From: a virus
Virus record (IMG/VR): IMGVR_UViG_3300046006_002524
Location: 1 to 22,476 of that record
DNA: 22,476 nucleotides
Reading direction: 5' to 3' (one strand)
A program made the position numbers and the translations under genes. Position 1 is the stretch's first letter; each line of letters opens with the position of its first letter. The notes below the pieces were generated by a model. The model searched no databases and had not been told where the DNA came from. It was given only the letters and a program-made list of their open reading frames with translations. Positions 1,388-22,476 of the stretch are shown piece by piece.

Positions 1388-1684
1388 ATGGCAACTTATA
1401 AAACTACTAGTCCTTATTTTAGTACTCCTATAACAGAGGGATATTTAGATATTGCAGCATTTAGAGATATTCCTAATGAGCCAACTGATATACTTTATGA
1501 AATATTAGCGCAACATCAGTACCGTCCTGATCTGCTAGCATATGATTTTTACGGTGATGTAAAATTATGGTGGGTATTTGCCGTTAGAAATAAAGATATT
1601 CTTAAAGATCCTGTGTACGATCTTATTGCCGGTCAAAAAATAAGAATACCACAACTTGATAATTTAAGAGCACTCGGTTTATAA
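1388..1684 (+). CDS. 53: Baseplate wedge protein gp53-like
   Basis: This 98-residue protein has the gp53-family signature in its second half: PDLLAYDFYGDVKLWWVFAV (47-66), then RNKDILKDPVYDLIAGQKIR (67-86) followed by IPQL. In T4, gp53 (196 residues) joins neighbouring wedges when they assemble around the hub. The C-terminal stretch resembles the LysM-like part of the family. This version is about half the T4 length and is close to the compact forms seen in other tailed phages. Its ATG follows the previous stop codon with no gap, and an AGGA motif (1375-1378) lies nine bases upstream inside the preceding gene. One base separates it from the next gene. Confidence 0.85.
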   Translation: MATYKTTSPYFSTPITEGYLDIAAFRDIPNEPTDILYEILAQHQYRPDLLAYDFYGDVKLWWVFAVRNKDILKDPVYDLIAGQKIRIPQLDNLRALGL

Positions 1685-6019: not shown

Positions 6020-6454
6020 ATGCCATACAAAAACATTGTTATTACTCCTCCTAAAGTTCCTAATCAGGACACTACTAAAGAAAGCCAATTTTATCGAGGC
6101 TTCAGTACGATCGATAATCTTTCAAATGTAAAGATATATGATTCTCTGTTAGTAAAACAGGACCTAATTAATCACTTTAATACAAAAAAAGGTGAGCGAT
6201 TGATGAATCCTGAATTTGGCACCATTATATGGGACTTGCTATATGATCCACTAACAGAGGCATTGAAACAAGATATAGAAGCAGATGTTAGAAATATTCT
6301 TAATAGCGATCCTAGGATCAATCCAATTGCAGTATCTATCGACGAAAAAGATTTTGGTATTTTAATAGAAGTTTCGATGACATATTCGGCCAATGATGAA
6401 ACAGATACTATGCGATTTTCTTTTGATAAAGATGCAGGGTTAATTGCTCAATAA
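6020..6454 (+). CDS. 25: Baseplate wedge protein gp25 (GPW/gp25 family)
   Basis: The 144-residue protein has the GPW/gp25 signature: KKGERLMNPEFGTIIWDLLY (56-75), then a helical stretch LTEALKQDIEADVRNILNSD and a C-terminal beta part ending in MRFSFDKD. gp25 is one of the most conserved contractile-tail components: it binds gp6 and gp53 in the wedge and its sheath-like part begins sheath assembly. Length is close to T4 gp25 (132 residues); the N-terminal 35 residues are extra and variable. It lies eight bases after gp5 with no ribosome binding site, which may mean leaderless translation from the late promoter at 6007-6014 or coupling to gp5. gp6, its structural partner, follows after 49 bases. 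Confidence 0.92.
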   Translation: MPYKNIVITPPKVPNQDTTKESQFYRGFSTIDNLSNVKIYDSLLVKQDLINHFNTKKGERLMNPEFGTIIWDLLYDPLTEALKQDIEADVRNILNSDPRINPIAVSIDEKDFGILIEVSMTYSANDETDTMRFSFDKDAGLIAQ

Positions 6455-6503: not shown

Positions 6504-9500
6504 ATGATACCATCTACTACTAATCGATTACTTGTTGCAGAAGACTGGAAAAAAATATACCAGTCTTACAGAAATGCAGACTTTAAGAGCTATGACTTTG
6601 ACACTTTAAGAAGAACTATGATCACTTATCTAAGGGAAAATTATCCTGAAGATTTTAATGATTTCATTGATTCTAGTGAATACATTGCCTTAATTGATCT
6701 AATTGCATACCTTGGACAAAATGTCAGTTTCCGCATAGACTTAAATGCTCGTGAAAACTTTTTAGAAACTGCCCAGCGCCGTGACAGCGTACTACGTCTT
6801 GCTCGATTGATTAATTACAATGCAAAACGAACTGTGCCGGCATCTGGGATGCTTAAAATTATATCCCTGCAAACAACCGAAGGCGTATTTGATAACAACG
6901 GAAACAATTTAGCCAGTTCGATAGTTAGCTGGAACGATGCAACAAATTCCAATTGGTTTGAACAGTTTGTTACAGTATTAAATGCAGCAATGCCTGGCGC
7001 AGTTTCGTTCGGAAAACCAATTGCTTCTGATGTAATTGATGGCATTTCGACTGAAAAATACACCCTTAATAGTGTAACAGATGGTGTTCCTTTGTACTCT
7101 TTTTCTAAGAGTGTTAATGGTGTACAAATGACATTTGAGATCGTTAGTTCTGATTTTGATACTTCTATTGTCGAAGAAACTCCTAGACCTGGAAACACAT
7201 TTTCTTTTGTTTACAAAAATGATAACAGAGGAAACAGTTCATCTAATACCGGATTCTTTGTTCAATTCAAACAAGGCACACTATCTCTTTCTAGTTTTAA
7301 TATTGATAATCCTGTACCAAATGAAGTAATCGGCATTAACGCTAATAATATTAACGAATCTGATGTTTGGCTATGGCAGCTAAATCCAGACGGAACCTAT
7401 CCCGATCAAGCATGGACTAAAGTAAGCAATGTAACAGGCAACAATGTAATTTACAATAGTATTTCTCAAAATAATAGAAAGTTATATGCAGTCTCTACTA
7501 GAGAAAACGACCAAATTGACTTAAATTTCGCTGACGGCAGTTTTGGCGATCTTCCTAAAGGATTGTTTAGATTATTTTACAGGCAAAGTAATGGTCTAAC
7601 ATATTCCATCAAACCTGAGCAAATGCGTAACGTAGCATTCTCTGTTAATTATATCAATGCACAGGGACAACCGCATTCATTAAAAGTGTATGCAGCCTTG
7701 CAATATACTATTTCAAATTCTTCAGCATCTGAAACAAATGAAGCCATTAAGGTAAAAGCCCCTCAGGCATACTATTCTCAAAATAGAATGATTACGGGTG
7801 AGGATTATAACATTGTTCCGTTAACTGCTGGCACAGGTATTCTTAAAGTTAAAGCAATTAATAGGGTATCTAGTGGCATCTCAAAGTATTATGAAATGTC
7901 TGATGTATCTGGAAAATACAGCGATGTAAATATTTTTAGCTCAGACGGTATTTTATATAAAAATGCAAATGAGTATTTGTTTGAATATCCTGTTACTAAC
8001 AAAAACGAAGTTAGTTATAATCTAAAAACAAATCTAAACAAGGTGTTTAATCTTAAAGAATTTAGATCGTTTTATCTTGAAAATTATTCGAGACCTAGTT
8101 TAACCGAAAGTAATATTTCTTGGGTTAGGGCAACTGATACGACTAATCAAACTACAGGATATTTTACAATTGGTGGATTTCCAGTACCAGCCGGCGAGTT
8201 TTCTTCTAATAACCTAAAGTACGGATTGGTAGGATCTCTAATTAAATTTGTAGCACCTATAACAATTAATACAGCATTACCGCCCGGATCCGCTGCTCAA
8301 CAAACATATTTTTTACCTAATGGAAAATTAACATTTTCACAAGATAATACAACTACTTCAGTTAAGTGGGCCAAGATAATTTCTATTATCGGTGATGGAT
8401 ACAATGGTGGAAAAGGTGTGCTATCAACTGGAATTGGTCCTATTGTTATAACGGGTAATATACCGTCCGAATCAATTCCTGCAGAAGTAATTCCGAAATT
8501 TATAACATCGTTGGATCTTGACGTATTGACATTGGTTGTTAATCTATCAATGGCTAAAAAGAATTTTGGACTAAGCCTTGACCCATTAACATCTACCTGG
8601 TTTATTGTTGCTGATACAAATATTGATTTAGCATCTCCATTTAGTTTGTTAAATCAAGCAGATACTACAGATACTAATAGAGATGCTAGTTGGATGGTAG
8701 CATTTGTTTGGTCTGGTAACAAATATATTGTTCGATATAGAGTTACAGAATACATATTTGAAAGTGATAAAGAAACATCATTCTTTGTTGAACCGTATAA
8801 AGTTAATTACGATTATCTTAATGATACAGTTATTAAAGACAAAATTGTAATTTTTGGTATTAATTCTTCTCCTACTGCCGTATCAGGTGTATACTTAAAA
8901 GATGACCAAAACTGGCAAGTAGATAGTTCTGTAATTGAACTTGACGGATATCAAGAACCTAAAAAGATTAAGATTAGTTTTTATGATAAAGATGATGATG
9001 GTCAAATTGATAATCCTGATTCATTTACAAATATTGTACAACCTGACTCAATTAGTATTCAAACAACATTCAAAAATAAATTTGTTTACTTTGAAAAATT
9101 AACAGATGGGCTTCGATATAGATTAACATCTCCTGATAAATTTTATGCATGTCCTACAGAAAATGATGTGCCCGAATCAATGTTAGTAGACGGGCAATTA
9201 TTTTATTTTTATAGCCCTTCGATAAATGTTATAAAAACATGGAATTTAGGATCAACCTCATTTGATCTAAACACAACATACTTTGCAAAACCTGGTCGAT
9301 CAAATTTGAAATTTCAATACACTCACAAAGCTGCTGAAAACAGACGAATCGATCCTAGTAAAACAAATATCATGGACATTTACCTCCTAACAAAATCTTA
9401 TGATACTGAATTTAGAAATTGGATAACAGCATTATCGGGTGCCGAACCTCTAGCGCCTACCAGTCAAAGTTTAAGTTTATCATATTCTCCTACTTTGAAT

Positions 9501-9947
9501 AAAGTTAAAAGTATTAGTGATGAGTTAATTTTTCATCCTACTAATTATAAGATATTATTTGGCAATAAAGCAAGTCCTGTGTTACAAGCAGTGTTTAAGG
9601 CATCTAAAAATTCTTACAGGTCTAGTAGCGACAACGAATTAAAGACTAGAATTTTAACAGCAATTAACAGTTTCTTTTCAATAGAAAACTGGGAGTTCGG
9701 CCAAACATTTTATTTTAGCGAACTATCTACTTACGTTATGAACATTATGACTCCTGACATTACTAATTTTGTAATAGTTCCTAAGCAAAATAATTCTTTT
9801 GGCAGCTTATACGAAATTAAATGTCAAAGCAATGAAATATTTGTATCCGGTGCAACTATCTTAGATATAGAAATCATAGATTCTATAACTACATCAGAAA
9901 TTAAGGCGTTAGGCAATGTTGTTAATACAGTTGGGGGTCAACAGTAA
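6504..9947 (+). CDS. 6: Baseplate wedge protein gp6 (gpJ-like family), enlarged
   Basis: The 1,147-residue protein starts with the typical gp6 N-terminus (YDFDTLRRTMITYLRENYPE and SSEYIALIDLIAYLGQNVSF, within residues 1-80), followed by FLETAQRRDSVLRLARLINY. Residues 334-355 (DQIDLNFADGSFGDLPKGLF) and 420-436 (PQAYYSQNRMITGEDYN) match the 'FGDG..G..P' and 'aP...R..T.eDY' motifs shared with the P2 gpJ wedge family. gp6 dimers link wedges into the inner baseplate ring and hold gp25 and gp53. T4 gp6 has 660 residues; here about 480 extra residues lie mainly between the DY motif and the conserved C-terminus (about 1045-1147, starting LKTRILTAINSFFSIENWEF). Residues 828-839 (DKDDDGQIDNPD) form an EF-hand-like loop. 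Its stop overlaps the next start in TAATG. Confidence 0.9.
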   Translation: MIPSTTNRLLVAEDWKKIYQSYRNADFKSYDFDTLRRTMITYLRENYPEDFNDFIDSSEYIALIDLIAYLGQNVSFRIDLNARENFLETAQRRDSVLRLARLINYNAKRTVPASGMLKIISLQTTEGVFDNNGNNLASSIVSWNDATNSNWFEQFVTVLNAAMPGAVSFGKPIASDVIDGISTEKYTLNSVTDGVPLYSFSKSVNGVQMTFEIVSSDFDTSIVEETPRPGNTFSFVYKNDNRGNSSSNTGFFVQFKQGTLSLSSFNIDNPVPNEVIGINANNINESDVWLWQLNPDGTYPDQAWTKVSNVTGNNVIYNSISQNNRKLYAVSTRENDQIDLNFADGSFGDLPKGLFRLFYRQSNGLTYSIKPEQMRNVAFSVNYINAQGQPHSLKVYAALQYTISNSSASETNEAIKVKAPQAYYSQNRMITGEDYNIVPLTAGTGILKVKAINRVSSGISKYYEMSDVSGKYSDVNIFSSDGILYKNANEYLFEYPVTNKNEVSYNLKTNLNKVFNLKEFRSFYLENYSRPSLTESNISWVRATDTTNQTTGYFTIGGFPVPAGEFSSNNLKYGLVGSLIKFVAPITINTALPPGSAAQQTYFLPNGKLTFSQDNTTTSVKWAKIISIIGDGYNGGKGVLSTGIGPIVITGNIPSESIPAEVIPKFITSLDLDVLTLVVNLSMAKKNFGLSLDPLTSTWFIVADTNIDLASPFSLLNQADTTDTNRDASWMVAFVWSGNKYIVRYRVTEYIFESDKETSFFVEPYKVNYDYLNDTVIKDKIVIFGINSSPTAVSGVYLKDDQNWQVDSSVIELDGYQEPKKIKISFYDKDDDGQIDNPDSFTNIVQPDSISIQTTFKNKFVYFEKLTDGLRYRLTSPDKFYACPTENDVPESMLVDGQLFYFYSPSINVIKTWNLGSTSFDLNTTYFAKPGRSNLKFQYTHKAAENRRIDPSKTNIMDIYLLTKSYDTEFRNWITALSGAEPLAPTSQSLSLSYSPTLNKVKSISDELIFHPTNYKILFGNKASPVLQAVFKASKNSYRSSSDNELKTRILTAINSFFSIENWEFGQTFYFSELSTYVMNIMTPDITNFVIVPKQNNSFGSLYEIKCQSNEIFVSGATILDIEIIDSITTSEIKALGNVVNTVGGQQ
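8985..9020 (+). other. EF-hand-like calcium loop in gp6
   Basis: Residues 828-839 read DKDDDGQIDNPD. Acidic side chains at positions 1, 3, 5, 9 and 12, Gly at 6 and Ile at 8 follow the EF-hand/dockerin loop pattern, with Asp rather than Glu at position 12. I recall a similar acidic loop in gp6 of marine T4-like phages. Calcium binding is inferred. Confidence 0.55.
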
Positions 9948-12900
9948 TGGCCAATAATATTCGCAAGTCAGTTGATTTACTTCCTGCATATTTTAGAACA
10001 GAAAAAAATAATAAATTTTTATCTAGTACATTAGATCAGTTTATGTCTGTTCCTCAATTGAACAGAGTAGATGCATTTGTTGGAAGTAAAAATACTCCTA
10101 ACTACTCTAGTGATGATAGATACGTAGAAGAAACAAATCTTTTACGTCAATCATATCAACTAGAGCCTGCATTAATTGTCAAAACATTAACTCAAGAAAT
10201 TAAAAAAGCATTTGCATTAGACGATTTGCTAAATCAAATTGACAGTCATAATGGACATTCATCAAATTTAGATAGATTATTGCATCCTCAATTTTATTCT
10301 TATGATCCTAAAATTGATTGGGATAAATTTATCAACTTTCGAGAATATTTTTGGTTACCAACTGGTCCGGATTCGGTTAGTATTTCTGGAGATAGAAAAG
10401 CGTCACAGGTTGAGTATAATGTTACAGATGCTAGCGATGGCATCCAATTCTTCTTTAATAATTCTACTACTTCTCAACAATTAATTCTTTACAGAGGAAC
10501 TACTTACGTCTTTAATATAAAATCTATTCATAATTTTTATATTAAGTACACAAACACTGCTGACTCCGATAACATGTTTGATATGGGAATTACAGGAAAT
10601 GGTACTAACAATGGACAGATTGTTGTTACTATAACTGGTCAGACCCCGGAATACCTGTTCTATACATCTGATGATGACCAATTGGCCACTGGTCCAATTT
10701 TTGTAAAAGATCCTGAATTTAATTCATCCATTGATGTTGAAGCTGATATTATTGGAAAGAAATATTATACTTCTGCAACCGGTGTAGAATTTATTAATGG
10801 ATTAAAAATTAAATTTATTGGTACAGTATTTCCGGAATTTTATAGAGATGCTGAATTTATTGTTAATGGCGTTGGCAAATCTATTAATCTTATTAAGTTT
10901 AATGATTTAGCAACTCCTGATGTTATTGCCGATTTGTATAACACTAGATTTGATGGCACAAACTTTGATCAATTTCCGTTCGATAATTTTTCAAATATTC
11001 CGTTGGTGCCAGAATATGTAACTATTAGCAAGGCTAGTAAAGATCTAAATCCATGGACACGTTATAATAGATGGTTTCATTCTGATGTTATTCGAACAGC
11101 CGCCGCCGCCAATGGAACAGTGGCAGTGTATCCTGCCGAATATAGAGCAACTCGTCCTATTGTAGAATTTTTGCCAAACATGCAATTGTTTGATTTTGGT
11201 ACAACTGCAATTCCTAACGTAGATTTAATTGATACTGTTACAACAAATGCATTCTTAAAGATTGAAAATCAGTTTGGATTTTATATTGATGGTATATTAT
11301 TGGAAGAAGGATTTCGTGTAATCTTTACCGCCGACGTAGACCCGCTAGTTCGTGGCAAAATCTTTAGAGTACACTTTTCCCTAGTCGGTACAAATACTAA
11401 AATTGATTTAATTTTAGAAGATGATCAAACAGTTGACGGCTCTTGTGCATTAGTCAAACAAGGATTAGAACATGGTGGTACATCTTGGTGGTACAATGGT
11501 ACTATTTGGAATAAAGGACAACAAAGATCCACTAGAAACCAAGCTCCTCTTTTTGATCTGTTTGACGATACTGGTGCAAATTATTCTGATAGCAATTATA
11601 CAACTGATTTTGCTGGTAACAAAATTTTTGGTTACGGAATCGGAACTGGTGCTAACGATCCTATTTTAGGGTTTCCTTTATTATATAGAAATATAGGAGT
11701 TGAGGGAACTTATCTATTCAAGAATTATTTTGCAACAGAAGAATTTTTATTAGTAAAAAATAATATAACAGGATATACGCCTACCGCTAGCACTTATTTT
11801 AAGATTGATGGCGTTCTAACAAATGTCTGGGTAGAAACTGCGGATTATAGTATCCCATTAATTGACGGAGTATACGATGTTCCGTTAAATCTTAGTAATA
11901 ATCCGTTAAATGATCCTATTTCTGATTTTACTCTAACTGAATTATCTAACCATGTTAATTCTATGGTTGATCGAGATCCTAATTTTGTAGGAGTATTCCC
12001 AGGAGTAAGTAATCTTAAAGATCTTCCAGAAGTATCAAAGTATGGAACAAAATTAATTTCAAACTTAAATTCTTTAGCTTTTGCTCAACATTTTATAAGT
12101 GATGAAGAAAATAGTATCATATCTGCAATTAGACTTGTTGGTGAAAATTATTATCAATTTAAGTTAAATTTAATTAAGACAATATCGTCAGTGGATCAAA
12201 CGTTGTCGCCAGTTGATGCGCTTGATGCAGCCCTTCAAATCTTAAATCAAAATAAAACTACTACATTCCCTTACTACTATAGTGACATGATGCCACACGG
12301 ATCTGGAGCAGTTATTAGAAATTATACTGTTACTGATTCTAGAAATAAAAAATATTCAATTCCTGCAGATTTTAATCTCACTCAATTAAGTACTACTGGT
12401 ACATTAGTCTATCTAAATGGGCAGCAATTGTTGGTTAATGCAGATTATGTATTTGATTCCTATGATACTAACGTTGAAATTTTAACTCCACTAGAACGTA
12501 ATGATGTTGTTACTGTAAAATATTATAGCAACACTACTGGTAGTTTTATTCCTCCAACTCCTACTAAGTTAGGATTATATCCTAAATTTGAACCAGTAGT
12601 ATTTGAAGACAATACGTATGCATTAGATGCTCGACAAGTTTTACAAGGCCATGATGGTAGTATTACCATATTGTTTGACGACTATCGTGATAACATTTTA
12701 TTAGAATTTGAACGTAGAATTTTTAACAATATTAAAGTTGACTACAGACAAGATTTGTTTGATGTTAATTCTGTGTTGCCTGGCATATTTAGAGATCAAG
12801 AATATACATATTCTGAAATTTTAGATCCGGTACATCGAGATTTATTAAAATGGAAAACTACATACAGTGTTGAGACTGATGACAATTTAACGTTTGATAT

Positions 12901-15900
12901 TTCGTTACCAAGGACATTTAATTATAGTTCAGTTACTACCAACGGTATATCTCTACCAGGCAACTGGCGAGCCATCTTTAAGATGTATTTCGATACTGAC
13001 AGACCACACATTACTCCTTGGGAAATGTTAGGGTTTAGTGTTATGCCGGTATGGTGGGAAGATCAATATGGACCTGCCCCATACACATCAGGCAACACCT
13101 TACTATGGGAAGACATTCAAGCTGGCAGAATTAGGCAAGGCACTAGAGCAGGAATTGATCCTATCTATATTAGACAAGGACTGCTGAATATCTTGCCTGT
13201 AGATGAAAACGGCAATTTAGTAGATATTCGAACTTGGGGTCCTCTTGGTGCAGCATCATATCTAGATACCGCTGATCAACCATGGAAATTTGGTGATAGC
13301 GGCCCTGGAGAAACTGCCTGGAGAAGAGGTAGTTACTGGCCGTTTGCTGTGCAGATTATTATGGCAATACTAAAACCTGCCGCATACTCTGCATTAATGT
13401 TTGATACTAGTAGACTTGTTAAAAATGTAATAGGTCAGTATGTTTATTCCGAAGATAATTTATTCTTGAATCAATCTAGGGTATTGTTGCCTTACGAAAA
13501 AGTTAACAACGTTGTAACATTTACAGCAGGATACAGTGTATTTGCAATAGAAGCTGGACAAATTAGAAATTCTAAGTATCTATCATTTCTTAAAGAAGAG
13601 CTGCAAAATTCTACATTTAATTTGATGCACAAGGTTGGTGGATTTGTTAGCAAAGATAAATTAGAAATAGTAATTGACTCAGTTAATCCTAACAGTGTTA
13701 ATCCTGGAATCTTGTTACCTGTTGAAGATTATAATATTCATTTTAATGTTAGTAATCCTGTAAAAGTTGTTAATATTTCTGGATTCATTATTCAGAAGTT
13801 ACAAGGTAAATTTATTTTACGAGGGTATGATAAAGTAAAACCGTATTTTACAATACTACCTGCAATACACGAAAAGTCTGATACTTACATTACTGTTGGG
13901 GGTAAAAGCGAAGATTATTCAGTATGGTCTATAAACGTTTATTATCCAATTGGTCAGGTTATTCTTTATGAAAATTCATTTTATAGAGTAACTAATAATC
14001 ATAATTCGGGTACTACATTTAATTCATTAAACTATTCTGTACTTACTGAATTGCCTATAATTAATGCAACTGTAGTTGCGTATCCGGCAGCATTTGACAG
14101 CAATACAATCAATGTTCCGTACACTACTAGTTACACTTCTATTCAAGAAGTTGCTGATGTAATGGCTGGCTACGGCCGATGGTTAGAAACTCAAGGTTTT
14201 GAGTTTGACGAATATGGCAACGATATCGGCGAAACGTTAAATTGGAAATTTGCAATTAAAGAATTTGCCTATTGGTCTAGTCAAAATTGGGCAGATAATA
14301 GTGTAATTGCAATTAGTCCTTTTGCAAATTCTATTAAATTTACATTCCAAGACTCTGTTGTTGATGATATTTTTAGTAGTTTTTACGATTACACATTATT
14401 AAAAGCAGACGGATTATCCTTTCCATTTGCAGATTTAATCATTAGTCGAACAGACGGGCAATGTACAATTACATCAAAGAATGATCAAGAAGGTATATTT
14501 TTTGCAAGTCTAAGATTAGTACAAAAAGAACATGCATTAATCTTGAATAATACAAGTCGATTTAATGATGTTATATATGATATTGATACTGGTTATAGAC
14601 AACGTCGAATTAGACTAGTGGGATTTAAGACAGCTAACTGGAATGGTGACTATTTTAGTCCAGGATTTGTTTACGATGCTGCTGTTATTAAAACGTGGAA
14701 ATCGTACGAAGATTATGTTGCAGGAGATATTGTAGAATACACCGGCAGTTATTACTCTCTTGACAGAAACTTACCTGGTAAGGAAAGTTTTGATTTTACT
14801 GATTGGAATAAATTAGGTGCTAAACCTGTAGCTCAATTAATTCCAAACTTTGAATATAAATTAAATCAATTTGAAGATTTTTATAGTTTAGAAATTGATA
14901 ATTTTGATATTAGTCAACAAGAATTAGCACAACATTTAACTGGATATAGTTCAAGATTATATCTTAGCAATATGTTTGTTAACCACACTGCTCAATATAA
15001 ATTCTTTCAAGGATTTATTAAGGAAAAGGGCACACGAAATGCTCTTGACAAATTGGCAAAGGCAAGTGTACATAACCTACAGGGACAAATTGATTTTAAT
15101 GAAGAGTGGGCATTTAGAATTGGTGCGTTTGGTGCGTATGCATCGTTACAAGAATTAGAATTTCCGTTATCCGAATCTAAATTTGTCGACAATTCTCAAT
15201 TAATTAAATTTGTATCTGAGATTCCTGTTATAGAGTATGACTCTACATTATATGTAACTTCAGAGTTATTATCAATTAAACCGTTGGATTACAATGTTGA
15301 TACTACCTTTTTTACAAAAGATGCATTGTTTGATCTAAAACCTTTCCTACTACCAGTTGCAGGATATGTTCGATTAGAGGATGTTGATTATACCGTTAAG
15401 TCTAAACAAGACTTACTAAACTTTATTCCAGGTAAAACTGTTAATCAAGGTGATACATTTTGGGTAGCATTTGATAATAATAATGACTGGGGAGTGTATC
15501 GATATACAAGAATGCCGTCTGCAATTATTGGCGTGACTGATAATATTGCAGGCGAAAGTATTACATTTACAACCAATGCATATCACGGATTAACTGTTGG
15601 TGATATTATTGCAGTTACTCGATTTGCAGACGAAGTTAACGGAATTTATATTATTTCTGAAATTAATAGGTTAAATGAAATTGTAGTTAAAACTACAGTT
15701 ACTGCACCTACTAGTACTAATGATTTCGGTGTGTTGTTTAAGTTTGTTTCATCTAGATTTGAAAAATTTGATGATCTAGTTGACACAAAATATGTTGCTG
15801 ATATTTTTCCAGGTAGAAAAATTTGGGTCGACTCTAATGTAACTGGACAATGGGAAGTTTATGAAAAGATTAATAATTATACTCCTAGTATATTAACTAA

Positions 15901-18900
15901 CAGAATTTTATCTGACGGTTCTTTTTACGGTGAAGTAATTATTTCTAAAGAAAATTCTAATTTCTTAGTAGTGTCAGCGCCTCGATTGACTGACGACAAC
16001 GGATCTGGCCAGATTTTTATGTACACTAATACTGGTGGAACATTAAAGCTAATCAACAGCTATCCACTAAACCGTGGACTAAATCAATATTATGAAAATG
16101 GCGGCCAGCCTGCTGCAAAATTTGGATTTGGTTTAGACTTTGATGCTGTTGACGGCATAATAATAGCCGGCGCTCCGTATGCATCAAATGTTAATGCTGA
16201 TGCATCTGGCAGCACTAGATATGTTCAATCTATTAATGCTGGTATTGGAAATATTAACGACGGCATGATTGTTATTTCGACCCTCAATGTAGCAGGTAAT
16301 GCAGAACTGCGTCATGTTATGTTGGCCTGCCAAGAACCTGCTAATAATTTAGAATTTGGTTATAGTACATTTATTGCCAGTACCGCTTCTCAAAAGATTG
16401 CATTAGTTGGCGCCCCTGGTCACACAAATTCTACAGGTGCTGTATTCAGTTACGATGTTGCATATATTAAATCATTTGATAATTTATCAATTGAAGTTAA
16501 TGCAACTGCAACTTCTCAAATTAAGTTACCGTCTCCTGGCATATCAACCGGTGCTAGATTTGGCGATGTTATTGCTGGCGATCTTGTAGGTAAGAGAATT
16601 GCAGTCAGTGCTCCAGGATATAGTAACGGCAAGGGTGCAGTGTATGTTTACGAAAACACAGGGACTACATCTGATTACACATTTGTACAAAGTTTATTAT
16701 GGAATGATGCATCGTTAAACAGTGCTATTTCGTCAGACGGACAGTTTGGCTATGATATAGATATGGACGATTCTGGAAAGTATCTATTTGTCTCAGCGTT
16801 CAATGCATATGACAGCGTTTTGCAACGCGGCAAAGTTGTTATATATGAATGGACCGGTACCCAATATACTGCAACTCAAGTAATTGACAATCCAAGTACT
16901 ACTAATGGTTTGAAATTTGGATTTAGCATTGAAAGCGATTCTTCTGGAAATATTCTAACTGTTACTTCTCAAGGCCCTAACTATTTTGCAAGTGCAAGTT
17001 TTGATGAATATTCAACTACATTTGATTCTGAATCGACTCGCCTAGGCACCTTAGTTGAAGACTCTGGATCTGCATATGTTTACAATAGATACGAAGAAAA
17101 ATTTATTTTTGCTAGTGAGTTATACAATAGTTCAGTTCTACCTAATAGTTCATACGGATACTCTACTTCTGTAAGTAGAGAAACAGTTTATGTTAGTTCA
17201 CCGAGGCATATTAGCACTGGTACATTACGTACTGGTGCAATACATATATGGCAAGCAAACGATCCAGCTTCCAACAGTTGGAATTTAGTTCGCCAACAAA
17301 CTGAATTAGTTGATGTAGAAAAGATTAAACAAGTTAAGACTATTAATGTTTATGAAGATACCGTAATTGATTACCTTGAAATTTATGATCCTATCAAAGG
17401 AAAAATTCCACAAGTTGCTGATCAAGAAATTAGATTCAAGACATTTTTTGATCCTGCCGTATATAATACAGGTACCAACACTTCAGCTACAATAGATGTG
17501 TCTACTTCGTGGAGTTCAGAACACGTTGGCGAATTGTGGTGGGACCTATCTGCTGTTAAGTATACCTGGTACGAGCAAGGTGATGTTGAATTTAGAAAAA
17601 ATACATGGGGCTCAGTATTTCCAGGATGTTCGATTGATATTTACGAATGGGTAAAATCCGATTTCTTGCCAGAACAATGGGCTATTGATGCAGACACTAC
17701 CGCAGGCCTTGCAGCAAATATTAGTGGTACTCCTAGATATGTTGACAATTCTGCATACGTAGTAGAACAGACATACAGTTCAATAATGGATACTTTTGTA
17801 AACGTTTATTATTTCTGGGTAAGAAATACTGTAGTTGTTCCGGTAAGACAAGGTAGACAACTATCGGCATTTGATGTTGCAGGACTAATTGAAAATCCAA
17901 AATTATTTGGATTAAAATATATTGAGCCATTATCTAGTAACAGTGTATCTGTAGTAAATGTCAAGGGATCATTAATCAACGAACGTATTTCTTTGAATAT
18001 TCAAGTGGATGATATTGACAATGAGACAAATAAACATACCGAATGGTTACTGCTAGAAGAGAATAACAAACATAGTTTACCTACTCCTAGTTTAGAGAAA
18101 AAATTAATTGATAGTTTGTTAGGACAAGATTCTTTAGGTAATGTTGTTCCTGATCCTATGCTTTCTGATAGACAAAAATACGGTATTGGTATTCGTCCTA
18201 GACAAAGTATGTTTAAGGATAGATTTTCAGCGTTACGTAACTTCATTGAATATGTTAACAATGTTTTTGCCAATAATTTAATTACAGATTTTTGTAATTT
18301 AGATAGACTTAATTCTAAAGAAGCTATACCTGATACAGCTCTTGCTGAATACGATGTAGTAGTAGGTGACATTAGTCAACGTAACGAAATAAACATCAGT
18401 AAAGTTAAATTGGCAAGTGTATCCTGTACTGTTGAACACGGAAGAATTGCCAGTGTTAAAATTTTAGATCCCGGATTTGGATATGGAAAATTAAATCCGT
18501 TAACATTTGATGATTTGGGAGTTGCGTTAACATGGCGCGGCCCAGCAGTCGAAGTTTTTAATGATCAAAATAATAGTAAATTAGAATCTATTATTGATGA
18601 ACTGGGTAGAATTATAAATGTTCAAATTGTTAATAGCGGATCGGGATACGAAGCTACTCCAGAAATTTTTGTTAGACCGTACACCGTAATTGTCTCTTCT
18701 GATGAAAATTCTAGAGGACGTTGGGCAAAATATATATTAAGCGACAGCGGCTGGTCAAAAATTCAAACACAAAGTTTTGATACAACTCTATATTGGGATC
18801 TTATAGATTGGGTATCTGCTGAATTTAATCAATATCACCGATTAACTGCAATTGTAGGGCAACGTGCCGAGTTAGATGAGTTATATCTAACAGCAGGAGA

Positions 18901-21900
18901 TTACGTAAAAGTATTGAATAACGGCGCTGGTCGATACATAATCCTTAGAAAAACAGCATTAGGTGTACATGGTACATATGACCTTAATTTTGATATAATA
19001 TATAGTGAAAAAGGTACAGTATACATTAAAGATTCTATATGGAAATTAGTAGATTCTCAATTAGGATGGGATCAACTTTCACCGTATGACAACAATTTCT
19101 GGGATCAATCAGCTAATACAGAATTAAAAAATATTATACTTTCTTTAAGAGATGATATTTTTATTGGCAACTTAAAAGTATATTGGAATACATCTTTCTT
19201 TGCTGCGGTAAAATATGCACTAACTGAACAAAAATTCTTAGATTGGGCATTCAAAACTAGTTTTATTTCTGTACATAATAAAGCCGGAGAATTAACTCAA
19301 CGGTCGGTTTATAAATTTCAAGATGCACAGTGGTACGAAGATTATTTGAATGAAATTAAACCATATCATACAAAGATTAGAAATTACTATCTTGCATATG
19401 ATGTAACAGAACCTACTAACACATACACTACAGACTTTGATTTGCCAGTTGTGTATGATAGCGGGACTGATTCTTTTATTACTCTATCAGAAAATGAACC
19501 ATTGGCGCAAACCACATATCCCTATAAAGGATGGTACGATAATAGAACATTAGTAGTTGGTTCAATTGTCGTAGACAACGGTGGTACTGGTTATATTGAA
19601 AATCCAATAGTACAAATTATTCCGGCGCCCGGAGATAATGTTATTAGACATGCAACTGCGGAAGCTGTGCTTTCCTCGGGACAGATTGATAGATTTGAGA
19701 TTATAGATTCTGGAGAAGGATATACATTAAATCCTACGGTATTAATTACTGGCGGCGGCAAAACTCCTACAGATACTATAGCAAGAGCTTCTGCACATTT
19801 AGTAAACGGAAAAGTTAGATCAAATCTAATAGGAATGAAGTTTGATAGGATTTCTAAATCTAGATTAGTTACAACCAAATATTTTACTGATGATTTTGTA
19901 GGAGACGGAGTAACTAATCAATTTGATTTATCTTGGCCATCTCATCCAGATAAAACAGAAATTGTATTAAAAATAAACGGAGTACCGGTTGCATCATCAT
20001 CGTACGAAATTGAAGACTATACAAATAATGCCAATGGTTATACACAACAATACACTAGATTAATCTTATCTAATGTGCCAACAGCCGCTGCAAGTATTCG
20101 TATTACATATCTAAAGAGTATAGACATTTATTCTGCGTATGATAGAATTGCAAACTACTACAACACCGTGCCGCTAGATTCGCCTGGTGCAAATCCTGCT
20201 GAAAATTATGCTCAATTAATGGCAGGCATGGAATATCCTGGAACTGAGATTATTTCTCAAGATTTATGGTATGATTTTACATGGGATTCTAGTCCATACA
20301 GTTCATTGCCATGGGATAAACAAAGTTTTGACACAACTGATTTAGATACAATTATTGATGGAGGTACTGTATTAACTACCGGAACTACTAAAGTATTTTC
20401 TACAGCAGCTGGCATTAATCCAGAAGATATTATTTTAGACGGTGATACATTTATTTCTCCTATAAGAAGTTATGCTCCTGAAGAAATGATTCCGGGAGAG
20501 TTAAGAGAATCTATTGGAATTAGTGTATTCAATAGGAGTGTTTCTGGTAGTGCAACGATCTACAATCAATTACAAAACTCAATTGCTGGAGTTAATACAG
20601 TTATTAATTTAAGTGTATTATCTCCTTCTGTTGGGTCTATTTCAGTAACTCGTGATAATAAACTATTAATTAACGGTATTGATTACGAAATTGACTTTGC
20701 AACTAGAAGTATAACAGTTTATGCAACTCCTGTCTCTGATACAATTGCAGTTGTTTGTATGGATGTTGGCGGTACTGGATTTATTAGTCTAAATTCTAAT
20801 GTTACAGAAGGATCGACAATTGGAGCAGTACTTGGCGATTGCCAATATTCACAAGTTAAGAGTATGTATGTAACATTAAACGGTCAAAGAATTTATACAA
20901 GTGGTACTTTCCTTGCTCAACAAGTCTATTACACATTTGGCGAATCTAATCCAGGAGTTGATGGTAGAGCTAAAGTTACAGTGTACGGATTAGGTACTGA
21001 CGGAAAGAATACAATTACCGCAGCATTTTTTACATCTGTTTTCAAAGGATTTAGTGAAGTATTAGAACAGCGATACTTTAATGTAAAAGAAGATGACAGA
21101 GTTATTACATTAACTCAACCACCTGGCACACTAGGTCCAGCATCTGCTAACTCTATTGTAGAATTTAATAAGAAAAGATTAGTTCCTCCTAATACAACTT
21201 ATTATGAAATTATTAATGTAAATCAAACTACCTTCTTAATAAGTTCTAAAGAAGTGTATCCTCCAAATTCTTTTGACAAGACAAGAATTGAAGTGTACAT
21301 AAATGGTAAACAAATTATTCCTACAGATTATTATCTAGATGATATTAATAATAGTATTATATTTGAAGCTGACACTTTTGCAATCGGAGATGTAGTAGCT
21401 ATCACTGCATTAATAGATTACGATTACTTAATTAGAGGTACTGATTTAATAATTAATGGTAGAGTTTCCTTACCATCAGAAAACTATCTAAGAATTTTAA
21501 CATTTACAAATCACGATGCTGCATTAATTAGGACTGAAGTTTATAACGCAAGTTCTACAAGAATGTACAAGATATCTAGAAAAATACTAAACGATAATTT
21601 AGTATGGGTTTCCATAGGAGACAATACATTACTTGGCGGAATTGATTTTGAAGTGTTAGGAGATGGAATGACAATTATAGTTGATCAAGCTATTCCGTTT
21701 AATGCTGAAGACCAAGTTATTATTACTAGTTTTGCTCAAAGCACTGCCGGTAAGACGGTTGGTTGGAAAATTTTCAGAGATATGATCGGACGAACACACT
21801 TCAAGCGATTGAGCAATACTGATACTACCTATTTGATTGCACCGTTAGGTCTTACTGATACAGAAATACACGTAGAGAATGGTGGTGTATTACCCAATGC

Positions 21901-22476
21901 AGATAGTAAATCTAATAGTCCTGGTATTATCTTTATTGCAGGTGAGCGCATCGAGTATCTTGAAAAGAATGGAAATATCTTATCTCGTATTAAGCGAGCT
22001 ACTATGGGTACTGGTGCAAAAGAACATTATATGATAGGAACTTGGGTATTTGATCAAGGCAAACAACAGACTATTCCTTATCAAGAAAGTGTAGTAATTG
22101 AGTCGACAGTGACCACAATATCAACATCTTCTGTTACTATAGAATTAGATACAAATAAATTTGTATTTAGAGATAATGTTAGCTTACACGATCAAGTAGA
22201 AGTTTACTACGGTGGCCGTTTGTTAGAAAAGCCTACAAAAGCAGGAGTCGATGTGTTAATTCACGATGCAGCATCGTATTATAATCCTATAAATATGACT
22301 GTAAAAGTTCCAGAATTTACTATTACTGGGTCGATTACAACTGCAACACTTACTATTACTACTGCTACACTTGCAAGCGTTGAAATTAAAATTGTTCAAC
22401 GTACTGGAAAAATATGGTCTACTTTCTCAGGAAAACCAATGTTTGAACAGGCTACACCGCAAGCTGCATTTATTAA
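9947..22476 (+). CDS. Giant multi-domain virion structural protein, C-terminus beyond window
   Basis: Reading from ATG 9947 (overlapping the gp6 stop by one base), the frame stays open to the last base: 4,176 complete codons without a stop. The start MANNIRKSVDLLPAYFRTEK is typical of a phage structural protein. Recognisable parts: APLFDLFDDTG with GYGIGTGANDPILGFPL (530-575), related to giant structural proteins of marine T4-like phages; an aromatic-rich core (about 906-1170, e.g. WEMLGFSVMPVWWEDQYGP); two CBM5/12-like motifs (1327-1366, 1582-1625); QGFIKEKGTRNALDKL (near 1690); seven FG-GAP-type repeats (1991-2436); paired GxGY repeats (2832-2910, 3205-3270); NGxxxxxxDY beta modules; and a GERIEY module near 4000. 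It sits where T4 has gp7 (1,032 residues), so a peripheral baseplate or receptor-facing role is likely, but gp7 homology is not visible. No late promoter or good ribosome binding site precedes it, so coupling to gp6 is inferred. Confidence 0.88.
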   Translation, partial: MANNIRKSVDLLPAYFRTEKNNKFLSSTLDQFMSVPQLNRVDAFVGSKNTPNYSSDDRYVEETNLLRQSYQLEPALIVKTLTQEIKKAFALDDLLNQIDSHNGHSSNLDRLLHPQFYSYDPKIDWDKFINFREYFWLPTGPDSVSISGDRKASQVEYNVTDASDGIQFFFNNSTTSQQLILYRGTTYVFNIKSIHNFYIKYTNTADSDNMFDMGITGNGTNNGQIVVTITGQTPEYLFYTSDDDQLATGPIFVKDPEFNSSIDVEADIIGKKYYTSATGVEFINGLKIKFIGTVFPEFYRDAEFIVNGVGKSINLIKFNDLATPDVIADLYNTRFDGTNFDQFPFDNFSNIPLVPEYVTISKASKDLNPWTRYNRWFHSDVIRTAAAANGTVAVYPAEYRATRPIVEFLPNMQLFDFGTTAIPNVDLIDTVTTNAFLKIENQFGFYIDGILLEEGFRVIFTADVDPLVRGKIFRVHFSLVGTNTKIDLILEDDQTVDGSCALVKQGLEHGGTSWWYNGTIWNKGQQRSTRNQAPLFDLFDDTGANYSDSNYTTDFAGNKIFGYGIGTGANDPILGFPLLYRNIGVEGTYLFKNYFATEEFLLVKNNITGYTPTASTYFKIDGVLTNVWVETADYSIPLIDGVYDVPLNLSNNPLNDPISDFTLTELSNHVNSMVDRDPNFVGVFPGVSNLKDLPEVSKYGTKLISNLNSLAFAQHFISDEENSIISAIRLVGENYYQFKLNLIKTISSVDQTLSPVDALDAALQILNQNKTTTFPYYYSDMMPHGSGAVIRNYTVTDSRNKKYSIPADFNLTQLSTTGTLVYLNGQQLLVNADYVFDSYDTNVEILTPLERNDVVTVKYYSNTTGSFIPPTPTKLGLYPKFEPVVFEDNTYALDARQVLQGHDGSITILFDDYRDNILLEFERRIFNNIKVDYRQDLFDVNSVLPGIFRDQEYTYSEILDPVHRDLLKWKTTYSVETDDNLTFDISLPRTFNYSSVTTNGISLPGNWRAIFKMYFDTDRPHITPWEMLGFSVMPVWWEDQYGPAPYTSGNTLLWEDIQAGRIRQGTRAGIDPIYIRQGLLNILPVDENGNLVDIRTWGPLGAASYLDTADQPWKFGDSGPGETAWRRGSYWPFAVQIIMAILKPAAYSALMFDTSRLVKNVIGQYVYSEDNLFLNQSRVLLPYEKVNNVVTFTAGYSVFAIEAGQIRNSKYLSFLKEELQNSTFNLMHKVGGFVSKDKLEIVIDSVNPNSVNPGILLPVEDYNIHFNVSNPVKVVNISGFIIQKLQGKFILRGYDKVKPYFTILPAIHEKSDTYITVGGKSEDYSVWSINVYYPIGQVILYENSFYRVTNNHNSGTTFNSLNYSVLTELPIINATVVAYPAAFDSNTINVPYTTSYTSIQEVADVMAGYGRWLETQGFEFDEYGNDIGETLNWKFAIKEFAYWSSQNWADNSVIAISPFANSIKFTFQDSVVDDIFSSFYDYTLLKADGLSFPFADLIISRTDGQCTITSKNDQEGIFFASLRLVQKEHALILNNTSRFNDVIYDIDTGYRQRRIRLVGFKTANWNGDYFSPGFVYDAAVIKTWKSYEDYVAGDIVEYTGSYYSLDRNLPGKESFDFTDWNKLGAKPVAQLIPNFEYKLNQFEDFYSLEIDNFDISQQELAQHLTGYSSRLYLSNMFVNHTAQYKFFQGFIKEKGTRNALDKLAKASVHNLQGQIDFNEEWAFRIGAFGAYASLQELEFPLSESKFVDNSQLIKFVSEIPVIEYDSTLYVTSELLSIKPLDYNVDTTFFTKDALFDLKPFLLPVAGYVRLEDVDYTVKSKQDLLNFIPGKTVNQGDTFWVAFDNNNDWGVYRYTRMPSAIIGVTDNIAGESITFTTNAYHGLTVGDIIAVTRFADEVNGIYIISEINRLNEIVVKTTVTAPTSTNDFGVLFKFVSSRFEKFDDLVDTKYVADIFPGRKIWVDSNVTGQWEVYEKINNYTPSILTNRILSDGSFYGEVIISKENSNFLVVSAPRLTDDNGSGQIFMYTNTGGTLKLINSYPLNRGLNQYYENGGQPAAKFGFGLDFDAVDGIIIAGAPYASNVNADASGSTRYVQSINAGIGNINDGMIVISTLNVAGNAELRHVMLACQEPANNLEFGYSTFIASTASQKIALVGAPGHTNSTGAVFSYDVAYIKSFDNLSIEVNATATSQIKLPSPGISTGARFGDVIAGDLVGKRIAVSAPGYSNGKGAVYVYENTGTTSDYTFVQSLLWNDASLNSAISSDGQFGYDIDMDDSGKYLFVSAFNAYDSVLQRGKVVIYEWTGTQYTATQVIDNPSTTNGLKFGFSIESDSSGNILTVTSQGPNYFASASFDEYSTTFDSESTRLGTLVEDSGSAYVYNRYEEKFIFASELYNSSVLPNSSYGYSTSVSRETVYVSSPRHISTGTLRTGAIHIWQANDPASNSWNLVRQQTELVDVEKIKQVKTINVYEDTVIDYLEIYDPIKGKIPQVADQEIRFKTFFDPAVYNTGTNTSATIDVSTSWSSEHVGELWWDLSAVKYTWYEQGDVEFRKNTWGSVFPGCSIDIYEWVKSDFLPEQWAIDADTTAGLAANISGTPRYVDNSAYVVEQTYSSIMDTFVNVYYFWVRNTVVVPVRQGRQLSAFDVAGLIENPKLFGLKYIEPLSSNSVSVVNVKGSLINERISLNIQVDDIDNETNKHTEWLLLEENNKHSLPTPSLEKKLIDSLLGQDSLGNVVPDPMLSDRQKYGIGIRPRQSMFKDRFSALRNFIEYVNNVFANNLITDFCNLDRLNSKEAIPDTALAEYDVVVGDISQRNEINISKVKLASVSCTVEHGRIASVKILDPGFGYGKLNPLTFDDLGVALTWRGPAVEVFNDQNNSKLESIIDELGRIINVQIVNSGSGYEATPEIFVRPYTVIVSSDENSRGRWAKYILSDSGWSKIQTQSFDTTLYWDLIDWVSAEFNQYHRLTAIVGQRAELDELYLTAGDYVKVLNNGAGRYIILRKTALGVHGTYDLNFDIIYSEKGTVYIKDSIWKLVDSQLGWDQLSPYDNNFWDQSANTELKNIILSLRDDIFIGNLKVYWNTSFFAAVKYALTEQKFLDWAFKTSFISVHNKAGELTQRSVYKFQDAQWYEDYLNEIKPYHTKIRNYYLAYDVTEPTNTYTTDFDLPVVYDSGTDSFITLSENEPLAQTTYPYKGWYDNRTLVVGSIVVDNGGTGYIENPIVQIIPAPGDNVIRHATAEAVLSSGQIDRFEIIDSGEGYTLNPTVLITGGGKTPTDTIARASAHLVNGKVRSNLIGMKFDRISKSRLVTTKYFTDDFVGDGVTNQFDLSWPSHPDKTEIVLKINGVPVASSSYEIEDYTNNANGYTQQYTRLILSNVPTAAASIRITYLKSIDIYSAYDRIANYYNTVPLDSPGANPAENYAQLMAGMEYPGTEIISQDLWYDFTWDSSPYSSLPWDKQSFDTTDLDTIIDGGTVLTTGTTKVFSTAAGINPEDIILDGDTFISPIRSYAPEEMIPGELRESIGISVFNRSVSGSATIYNQLQNSIAGVNTVINLSVLSPSVGSISVTRDNKLLINGIDYEIDFATRSITVYATPVSDTIAVVCMDVGGTGFISLNSNVTEGSTIGAVLGDCQYSQVKSMYVTLNGQRIYTSGTFLAQQVYYTFGESNPGVDGRAKVTVYGLGTDGKNTITAAFFTSVFKGFSEVLEQRYFNVKEDDRVITLTQPPGTLGPASANSIVEFNKKRLVPPNTTYYEIINVNQTTFLISSKEVYPPNSFDKTRIEVYINGKQIIPTDYYLDDINNSIIFEADTFAIGDVVAITALIDYDYLIRGTDLIINGRVSLPSENYLRILTFTNHDAALIRTEVYNASSTRMYKISRKILNDNLVWVSIGDNTLLGGIDFEVLGDGMTIIVDQAIPFNAEDQVIITSFAQSTAGKTVGWKIFRDMIGRTHFKRLSNTDTTYLIAPLGLTDTEIHVENGGVLPNADSKSNSPGIIFIAGERIEYLEKNGNILSRIKRATMGTGAKEHYMIGTWVFDQGKQQTIPYQESVVIESTVTTISTSSVTIELDTNKFVFRDNVSLHDQVEVYYGGRLLEKPTKAGVDVLIHDAASYYNPINMTVKVPEFTITGSITTATLTITTATLASVEIKIVQRTGKIWSTFSGKPMFEQATPQAAFI
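13925..14043 (+). other. CBM5/12-like carbohydrate-binding motif, first copy
   Basis: Residues 1327-1366 of the giant protein: WSINVYYPIGQVILYENSFY followed by RVTNNHNSGTTF. The spacing W..., Y.P.GQ.V.Y..., FYR.T matches the 'W....Y..GD.V.y.g..Y.a....' pattern of chitin/cellulose-binding modules (CBM5/12) that recur in phage tail proteins. Glycan binding is inferred. Confidence 0.45.
14690..14824 (+). other. CBM5/12-like carbohydrate-binding motif, second copy
   Basis: Residues 1582-1625 of the giant protein: TWKSYEDYVAGDIVEYTGSY followed by YSLDRNLPG and closing W-N-K-L-G (Trp1620). It has both framing tryptophans and the central GDIVEYTGSYY, so it fits the CBM5/12 pattern better than the first copy, about 255 residues upstream. 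Confidence 0.55.
15917..17254 (+). other. Seven FG-GAP-like repeats (integrin-alpha-type beta-propeller) in the giant protein
   Basis: Residues 1991-2436 contain seven units of the form F/Y-G-x-x-(15 to 20)-VSAP/VGAP-x-G-x-h-x-h-Y. Openings are SFYGEVIIS, AKFGFGLDF, LEFGYSTFI, ARFGDVIAG, GQFGYDIDM, LKFGFSIES and SSYGYSTSV; cores are VVSAP, IAGAP, LVGAP, AVSAP, FVSAF, TVTSQ and YVSSP; several close with strands such as GAVYVYE or GAIHIWQ. Seven blades are what a closed integrin-alpha-type propeller needs. Acidic loops (DMDDSG, ESDSSG) may bind calcium. Confidence 0.7.
18419..18687 (+). other. First pair of GxGY repeats in the giant protein
   Basis: Two units, GRIASVKILDPGFGYGKLNP (Asp2841 at the loop) and GRIINVQIVNSGSGYEATPE (Asn2896 at the loop), share the plan G-x-I-x-x-V-x-I-x-x-x-G-x-G-Y. 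This repeat type is common in bacterial and phage fibre-like structural proteins. Confidence 0.6.
19559..19762 (+). other. Second pair of GxGY repeats in the giant protein
   Basis: SIVVDNGGTGYIENPIVQII and, after HATAEAVLSSGQ, IDRFEIIDSGEGYTLNPTVL give two tandem units with GxGY at residues 3213-3216 and 3256-3259. The arrangement 'GTGY..P.V.I ... ATAEAVL..G.I....I.DSGEGY..NPTV.I.GGG' is the classic two-unit form. Confidence 0.65.
21758..22081 (+). other. Conserved GERIEY module near the visible end of the giant protein
   Basis: The segment reads GWKIFRDMIGRTHFKRLSNT, then an acidic strand region, GIIFIAGERIEYLEKNGNIL, SRIKRATMGTGAKEHYMIGT and a closing QQTIPYQ. I recall this order (GRT.FKRL, GERIEY, R.T.GTG..H, IPY) from giant structural proteins of marine T4-like phages. 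Function unknown. Confidence 0.5.

Follow-up and report, generated by a model that had tools for sequence, protein, structure and literature searches.

The window analyzed here is an entire IMG/VR virus record of 22,476 bases. Its plus strand carries a T4-like baseplate operon that encodes a gp53-like protein, a hub protein, a gp5-like hub with a transglycosylase domain, gp25 and gp6 (Table 1). A giant reading frame follows directly after gp6 and runs open into the contig end (4,176 aa). A near-identical locus, L002, whose propeller region (see below) is identical to that of the window, gave the full giant protein of 4,214 aa. This protein matched phrog_10938, a jumbo-phage virion structural protein, with 1050.6 bits; the BLAST segments ran along the body, and the position after gp6 fits the assignment. 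The first 1,000 aa matched 57 phage records, the best being PA5oct-type Pseudomonas phages (~30%). Judged by gene order alone, the giant protein may be the counterpart of T4 gp7. A profile of the N-terminal 1,774 aa retrieved no gp7 or other baseplate protein from PDB, and gp7 was absent among the matches listed for a model of the body of L036, a relative described below (a modest model, pLDDT 66.7).

Several further features were seen along the operon. In the gp5-like hub, an ACT/CCT triplet repeat at 5358–5400 encodes a Thr/Pro linker ahead of the transglycosylase domain. The giant protein contains a CBM5/12 chitin-binding-type motif at aa 1583–1604 (14693–14758) that scored under the Pfam cut-off, and its N-terminal profile also matched chitinase A1 (E 0.0073). 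In a clade of four loci (L102, L114, L146 and L158), the giant protein has an open frame of 5,894 to 6,334 aa. In locus L005, the gene next after the giant protein (16687–19200 of L005) encodes collagen repeats and a pectate-lyase-type domain.

Table 1. Features of the baseplate operon and of the giant protein (positions in the window; aa numbering of the giant protein)
Feature	Position	Strand	Remark
gp53-like baseplate wedge protein	1388..1684	+	
gp5-like hub with SLT transglycosylase domain	3885..6011	+	
gp25-like baseplate wedge protein	6020..6454	+	
gp6-like baseplate wedge protein	6504..9947	+	
Giant baseplate-operon protein	9947..22474	+	4176 aa within window; phrog_10938 virion structural protein
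Small beta-barrel domain, endosialidase-barrel-like (aa about 1857-1940)	15515..15766	+	weak; via L036 model
Host hairpin, first strand (WEVYEK, aa 1969-1974)	15851..15868	+	
Seven-bladed integrin-alpha-type (FG-GAP) propeller (aa 1978-2450)	15878..17296	+	
FG-GAP unit 1 (aa 1991-2056)	15917..16114	+	
FG-GAP unit 2 (aa 2057-2134)	16115..16348	+	long B-C loop
FG-GAP unit 3 (aa 2135-2202)	16349..16552	+	
FG-GAP unit 4 (aa 2203-2265)	16553..16741	+	
FG-GAP unit 5 (aa 2266-2322)	16742..16912	+	
FG-GAP unit 6 (aa 2323-2402)	16913..17152	+	long conserved B-C loop
Conserved blade-6 loop, [TS]FD...TTFD.x.ST.F (aa 2351-2366)	16997..17044	+	candidate functional site
FG-GAP unit 7 (aa 2403-2455)	17153..17311	+	
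Host hairpin, second strand (SWNLVRQ, aa 2444-2450)	17276..17296	+	short turn joins both strands in L036
Conserved body segment 3' of propeller (aa 2463-2752)	17333..18202	+	query for finding relatives

A preliminary description of this DNA had proposed that 15917–17254 (aa 1991–2436, in the single unbroken frame beginning at 9947) holds exactly seven FG-GAP-type units that make up an integrin-alpha-like propeller in the middle of a giant baseplate protein. We searched the full-length L002 protein with a blade HMM built from 280 relatives' units; the window and its close relatives L016, L017 and L018 were left out of the training. Seven domains scored above 0 bits, all of them within aa 1992–2454 and none elsewhere in the 4,214 aa, in agreement with the proposed number. 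For each of the seven units, 0 of 500 shuffles matched the score. Because the window itself set the boundaries at which the training units were cut, the HMM is mildly circular, a point that does not touch the evidence from the fold and from PDB given below. The core residues are kept in most units, as had been claimed: aromatic-Gly and the Gly before strand C are present in 7/7 units each and the GAP-type Pro in 5/7, being missing from blades 5 and 6. The location also stood, but the proposed limits were slightly short and missed the first and last strands (aa 1978–1984 and 2444–2450); with these included, the domain extends over 15878–17296 and lies mid-chain, as described.

Searches with single sequences returned little. 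A Pfam scan of the full-length giant protein gave no FG-GAP match, and the window propeller reached the cut-off solely as an excised domain, with one repeat. PHROGs and NCBIfam contained no family for the window propeller, tblastn of it gave no match among 50,697 phage records, and phmmer of the single propeller sequence against PDB gave just a chance antibody match. The propeller of another locus, L070, gave two weak phage matches (E 0.09 and 0.2). Searching genome contigs for a bacterial source with the L070 query yielded 28 pattern matches and 0 confirmed ones; this search reaches close relatives, and the origin may still be bacterial. At the level of the family, 38 of 44 members matched Pfam FG-GAP_2 (PF14312). 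A profile of the 44-row family matched 52 distinct PDB sequences (E up to 1), and 51 of these are integrin alpha subunits, the best being alpha-4 (E 8.6e-17). Known domains in giant phage proteins can escape single-sequence annotation.

The predicted structure points the same way. An AlphaFold2 model of aa 1775–2752 had a mean pLDDT of 76.7, with the propeller blocks mostly at 80–95. Foldseek with this model ranked integrin alpha first, and VIA-align placed model residues 202–672 on alphaM over 363 residues (Z 37.5, rmsd 2.8 Å). All of the 50 matches listed in the structural alignment were integrin alpha (Z 33.2–37.5). DSSP assigned at least three residues to 27 of the 28 expected strands, strand A of blade 1 having only two. 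From the superposition across the whole range we infer that the predicted fold is a closed ring of seven blades, neither fewer nor more. Integrins are part of the AlphaFold2 training, but the sequence-profile match to integrin alpha is independent of the model. Together, the profile match and the superposition of the model over the whole ring bear out the integrin-alpha-like seven-blade propeller.

The likeness ends at the metal sites. In integrins, DxDxDG calcium loops lie between strands A and B of several blades, according to PMC3192720 and PMC8023676. The strict motif was found in 0/44 family members and a loose motif in 5/44. The A-B loops average 4.1 residues and are therefore too short for a DxDxDG calcium loop. 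Calcium binding by the phage propeller, considered by analogy with integrins, was rejected as unsupported, the strict motif being absent and the A-B loops short. The phage propeller is thus integrin-type in fold and in FG-GAP motif, but not in metal sites.

One relative, L036, lacks the propeller and presents an empty site, which reads ...KWAVYKKGVYSWAQYRTQ.... Here, ...IWVDENTNNKWAVYKKGVYSWAQYRTQVDSVD... of L036 corresponds to ...WVDSNVTGQWEVYEKIN-[propeller]-SNSWNLVRQQTELVD... of the window. In the L036 model, residues 579–583 and 588–593 form adjacent strands with a short turn between them (block pLDDT about 85). The hairpin of L036 is thus bare, which places the insertion of the propeller at a beta-hairpin tip. 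No propeller was found elsewhere in the 353-kb record of L036.

The L036 model also contains a small barrel (residues 459–545) that corresponds to a domain upstream of the window propeller and comes after a similar W-x-V-Y-R motif. This barrel could be aligned to that of a phage endosialidase (4hiz, Z 8.6, 20% identity) and also to the ubiquitin-E1 barrel and to tail-tube domains; Pfam End_beta_barrel gave a weak match in 5/36. The ubiquitin-E1 and endosialidase matches are confined to this one small domain.

Relatives were found through the conserved body segment downstream of the propeller. At least 583 were confirmed in viral contigs, and the best 80 were kept. In 79 of these, an upstream BLAST match to the window propeller was obtained, L036 being the one without. 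Seven units were present in 63 of 76 anchored inserts of this closer set, the inserts measuring 430–779 residues. Scans seeded on L008 and SCTP-2 were added, giving 187 non-redundant loci. Counting units above 5 bits, 70 loci had seven, 41 had six, 22 had five, 19 had four and 8 had three; eight units were counted in 6 loci, two in 2, and nine and one in 1 locus each, and 17 loci had none. The shuffled regions of the same 187 loci contained 0 units in 182 cases and 1 unit in 5. A FastTree was calculated from the body segments of 185 loci, after two of the 187 had been dropped as too short or misplaced. The propeller is present in 169 tree rows (among them L217, which has a single strong unit and was scored as propeller-bearing) and absent in 16. 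Two changes suffice on this tree, whose sample is weighted to near relatives of the three seeds and in which the propeller-free rows are joined by long branches. L036 is nearest to propeller-bearing rows. Thus, the propeller was apparently gained once and retained in nearly all members examined.

The downstream segment is also present in 58 isolate records. The phrog_10938 protein of RaK2-, PA5oct-, Atu_ph07- and GAP32-type jumbo phages is the same giant protein at the same operon position; unlike in the window, no FG-GAP unit was detected at the propeller site in the six cultivated representatives tested. Between the anchors, RaK2 has 122 residues and GAP32 has 120, and the other cultivated representatives hold different material. 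In Atu_ph07 and Phosso (L011 and L014), about 920 residues lie between the same anchors; the Atu_ph07 stretch matched nothing in Pfam. By eye, a LamG-like domain was suspected at the SCTP-2 site. Pfam found nothing there, so the domain is not claimed.

We then compared the propeller with its flanks. Median identity to the window was 0.37 before the propeller, 0.30 within it and 0.52 after it. Set against the segment that follows, the propeller had the lower identity in 42 of 43 relatives; set against the preceding segment, it did so in 43/43. Propeller and flank distances were correlated (Mantel r 0.855, a value reached in 0 of 999 permutations), hence the propeller is inherited along with the body. 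For the pair L002 and L005, dN/dS was 0.042 for the propeller, 0.083 for the N-terminal part and 0.119 for the C-terminal part. Positive selection on the propeller was sought and not found; for the pair L002–L007, dS was saturated.

Loop lengths varied unequally in the 44-row family, the mean SD being 3.81 for B-C, 1.69 for D-A, 1.06 for C-D and 0.66 for A-B loops. Propeller topology assigns the B-C and D-A loops to the FG-GAP face. Residue entropy, by contrast, did not differ between the propeller faces. Among the extra insertions of 25 or more residues listed for non-truncated loci, 12 of 13 lie in B-C or D-A loops, a count that omits L064 (start missing, row misaligned). L066 has 256 residues inserted in C5-D5, and by eye the same loop also holds the insert of L064 and one insert of L072. 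A restriction of the inserts to D-A loop domains is ruled out by these C5-D5 inserts. The loop inserts of L064 (390–1721) and L066 (5687–6568) gave no convincing family in Pfam and consist of repeated SRA-V-I-AY...YP-E-IR-WM..GL units. Outside the core, the strongest conserved feature is the B-C loop of blade 6, in which D2360 and T2364 are present in 44/44 rows. T-x-F-D was found in 156 of 169 propeller rows versus 2 of the 16 rows without propeller.

We propose that the seven-blade FG-GAP propeller, inserted at the hairpin tip of the giant protein after gp6 in jumbo-type phages, probably serves as a binding platform that is exposed and independent of metal, either gripping a partner or making contact with the host surface. 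With chain entry and exit sharing a single hairpin, the disk would be held off the protein body, and its FG-GAP face, made up of the D-A and B-C loops, would bear the loops of variable length and, in some relatives, entire additional domains. The partner could be, for example, a fiber or the spike of the next gene; alternatively, the host surface may be contacted. A large uncultivated lineage would have acquired the propeller once and then kept it under purifying selection, with clean loss being possible. The conserved ring, the variable loop lengths and the tolerated extra domains fit a binding platform; against it count the extra insertions on more than one face (L066 and, by eye, L064 and L072) and an entropy that singles out no face. 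The preliminary description had envisaged a receptor- or partner-binding head and proposed comparing its top-face loops for hypervariability. The binding head finds partial support: the position at the hairpin tip and the greater length variation of the FG-GAP-face loops fit it, but residue entropy is alike on the faces, and the low dN/dS between close relatives and the high Mantel correlation with the body are unlike a fast-swapped receptor tip. This purifying selection and co-inheritance slightly favor a partner, or else a surface feature that is conserved. The platform reading has a sharper form in which the variable face directly binds a cell-surface glycan or protein and so sets the host range. 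The hairpin-tip position, the length-variable FG-GAP-face loops with their extra domains, the faster divergence relative to both flanks and the site without propeller in six cultivated representatives speak for it. Set against these are the strong short-range purifying selection, the inheritance together with the body, and the collagen and pectate-lyase-type protein of the next gene (seen in L005), a more usual receptor-binding candidate; we regard a host-receptor head as possible but rather doubtful.

The constant blade number and the low dN/dS could also be explained if the propeller were an internal brace, a rigid spacer between baseplate subunits with no exposed ligand, and beta-propellers often scaffold assemblies. 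L036, however, cleanly lost the propeller within a propeller-bearing clade, and loop insertions of domain size are tolerated, which makes a brace unlikely. A generic propeller of the WD40, VCBS or other class that is merely integrin-like is already disfavored. It could appeal to the marginal Pfam support from single sequences and to eIF3i, a WD40 protein, which appeared once among the Foldseek top 50. With integrin alpha accounting for 51/52 profile matches and all 50 structural matches listed, and with FG-GAP_2 in 38/44 members, this reading is very improbable. In addition to the binding platform favored above, we tentatively consider an integrin-alpha-type adhesion device, that is, a calcium-free hairpin-tip propeller with inter-blade extra domains in which the blade-6 loop (TTFD...T) would be the binding site; it seems to us about as doubtful as the host-receptor head.

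The N-terminal propeller of integrin alpha (e.g. alphaM, 9t3y; alpha4, 3v4p) has seven FG-GAP units and the same fold as the phage propeller. In both, domains are inserted between blades; the extra domain of integrin propellers sits between blades 2 and 3. The presence of this extra domain is stated in PMC3585415. Unlike integrin alpha, the phage propeller is without calcium loops, is set on the hairpin tip of a virion protein and is flanked by phage baseplate protein. Prokaryotic proteins with seven FG-GAP/Cage repeats, as in the phage propeller, were described by Chouhan et al. (2011; PMC3192720); each of the seven blades of those bacterial integrin-type propellers bears a calcium motif, in contrast to the complete lack of the strict motif in the phage family. 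Bacterial integrin-type propellers are already known from that work, and FG-GAP propellers in viral proteins from database annotation. We found no description of a propeller in this giant protein or in a phage baseplate protein in the open-licence PMC literature; the viral FG-GAP database entries are annotation only, and the hairpin and the distribution are described in no paper that we found. In this locus, the tail machine of a large phage lineage includes an integrin-alpha-type adhesion fold, and the hairpin site is one at which baseplates take up entire domains. With the natural empty site of L036 and the hairpin boundaries exactly defined, the function of the propeller can be tested directly by deletion.

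Other viral proteins resemble the model as well. In BFVD, it matched FG-GAP and YHYH proteins of uncultured Caudovirales phages (A0A6J5L0K2 and A0A6J5S3H5). One A0A6J5L0K2 fragment is 29% identical and probably belongs to the same giant-protein family. The model was also matched by a hemagglutinin protein of Atu_ph07 and by a virion protein of S-TIM5; integrin-class propellers thus occur in other isolate proteins, for example a 393-aa protein of Atu_ph07 and the S-TIM5 virion protein.
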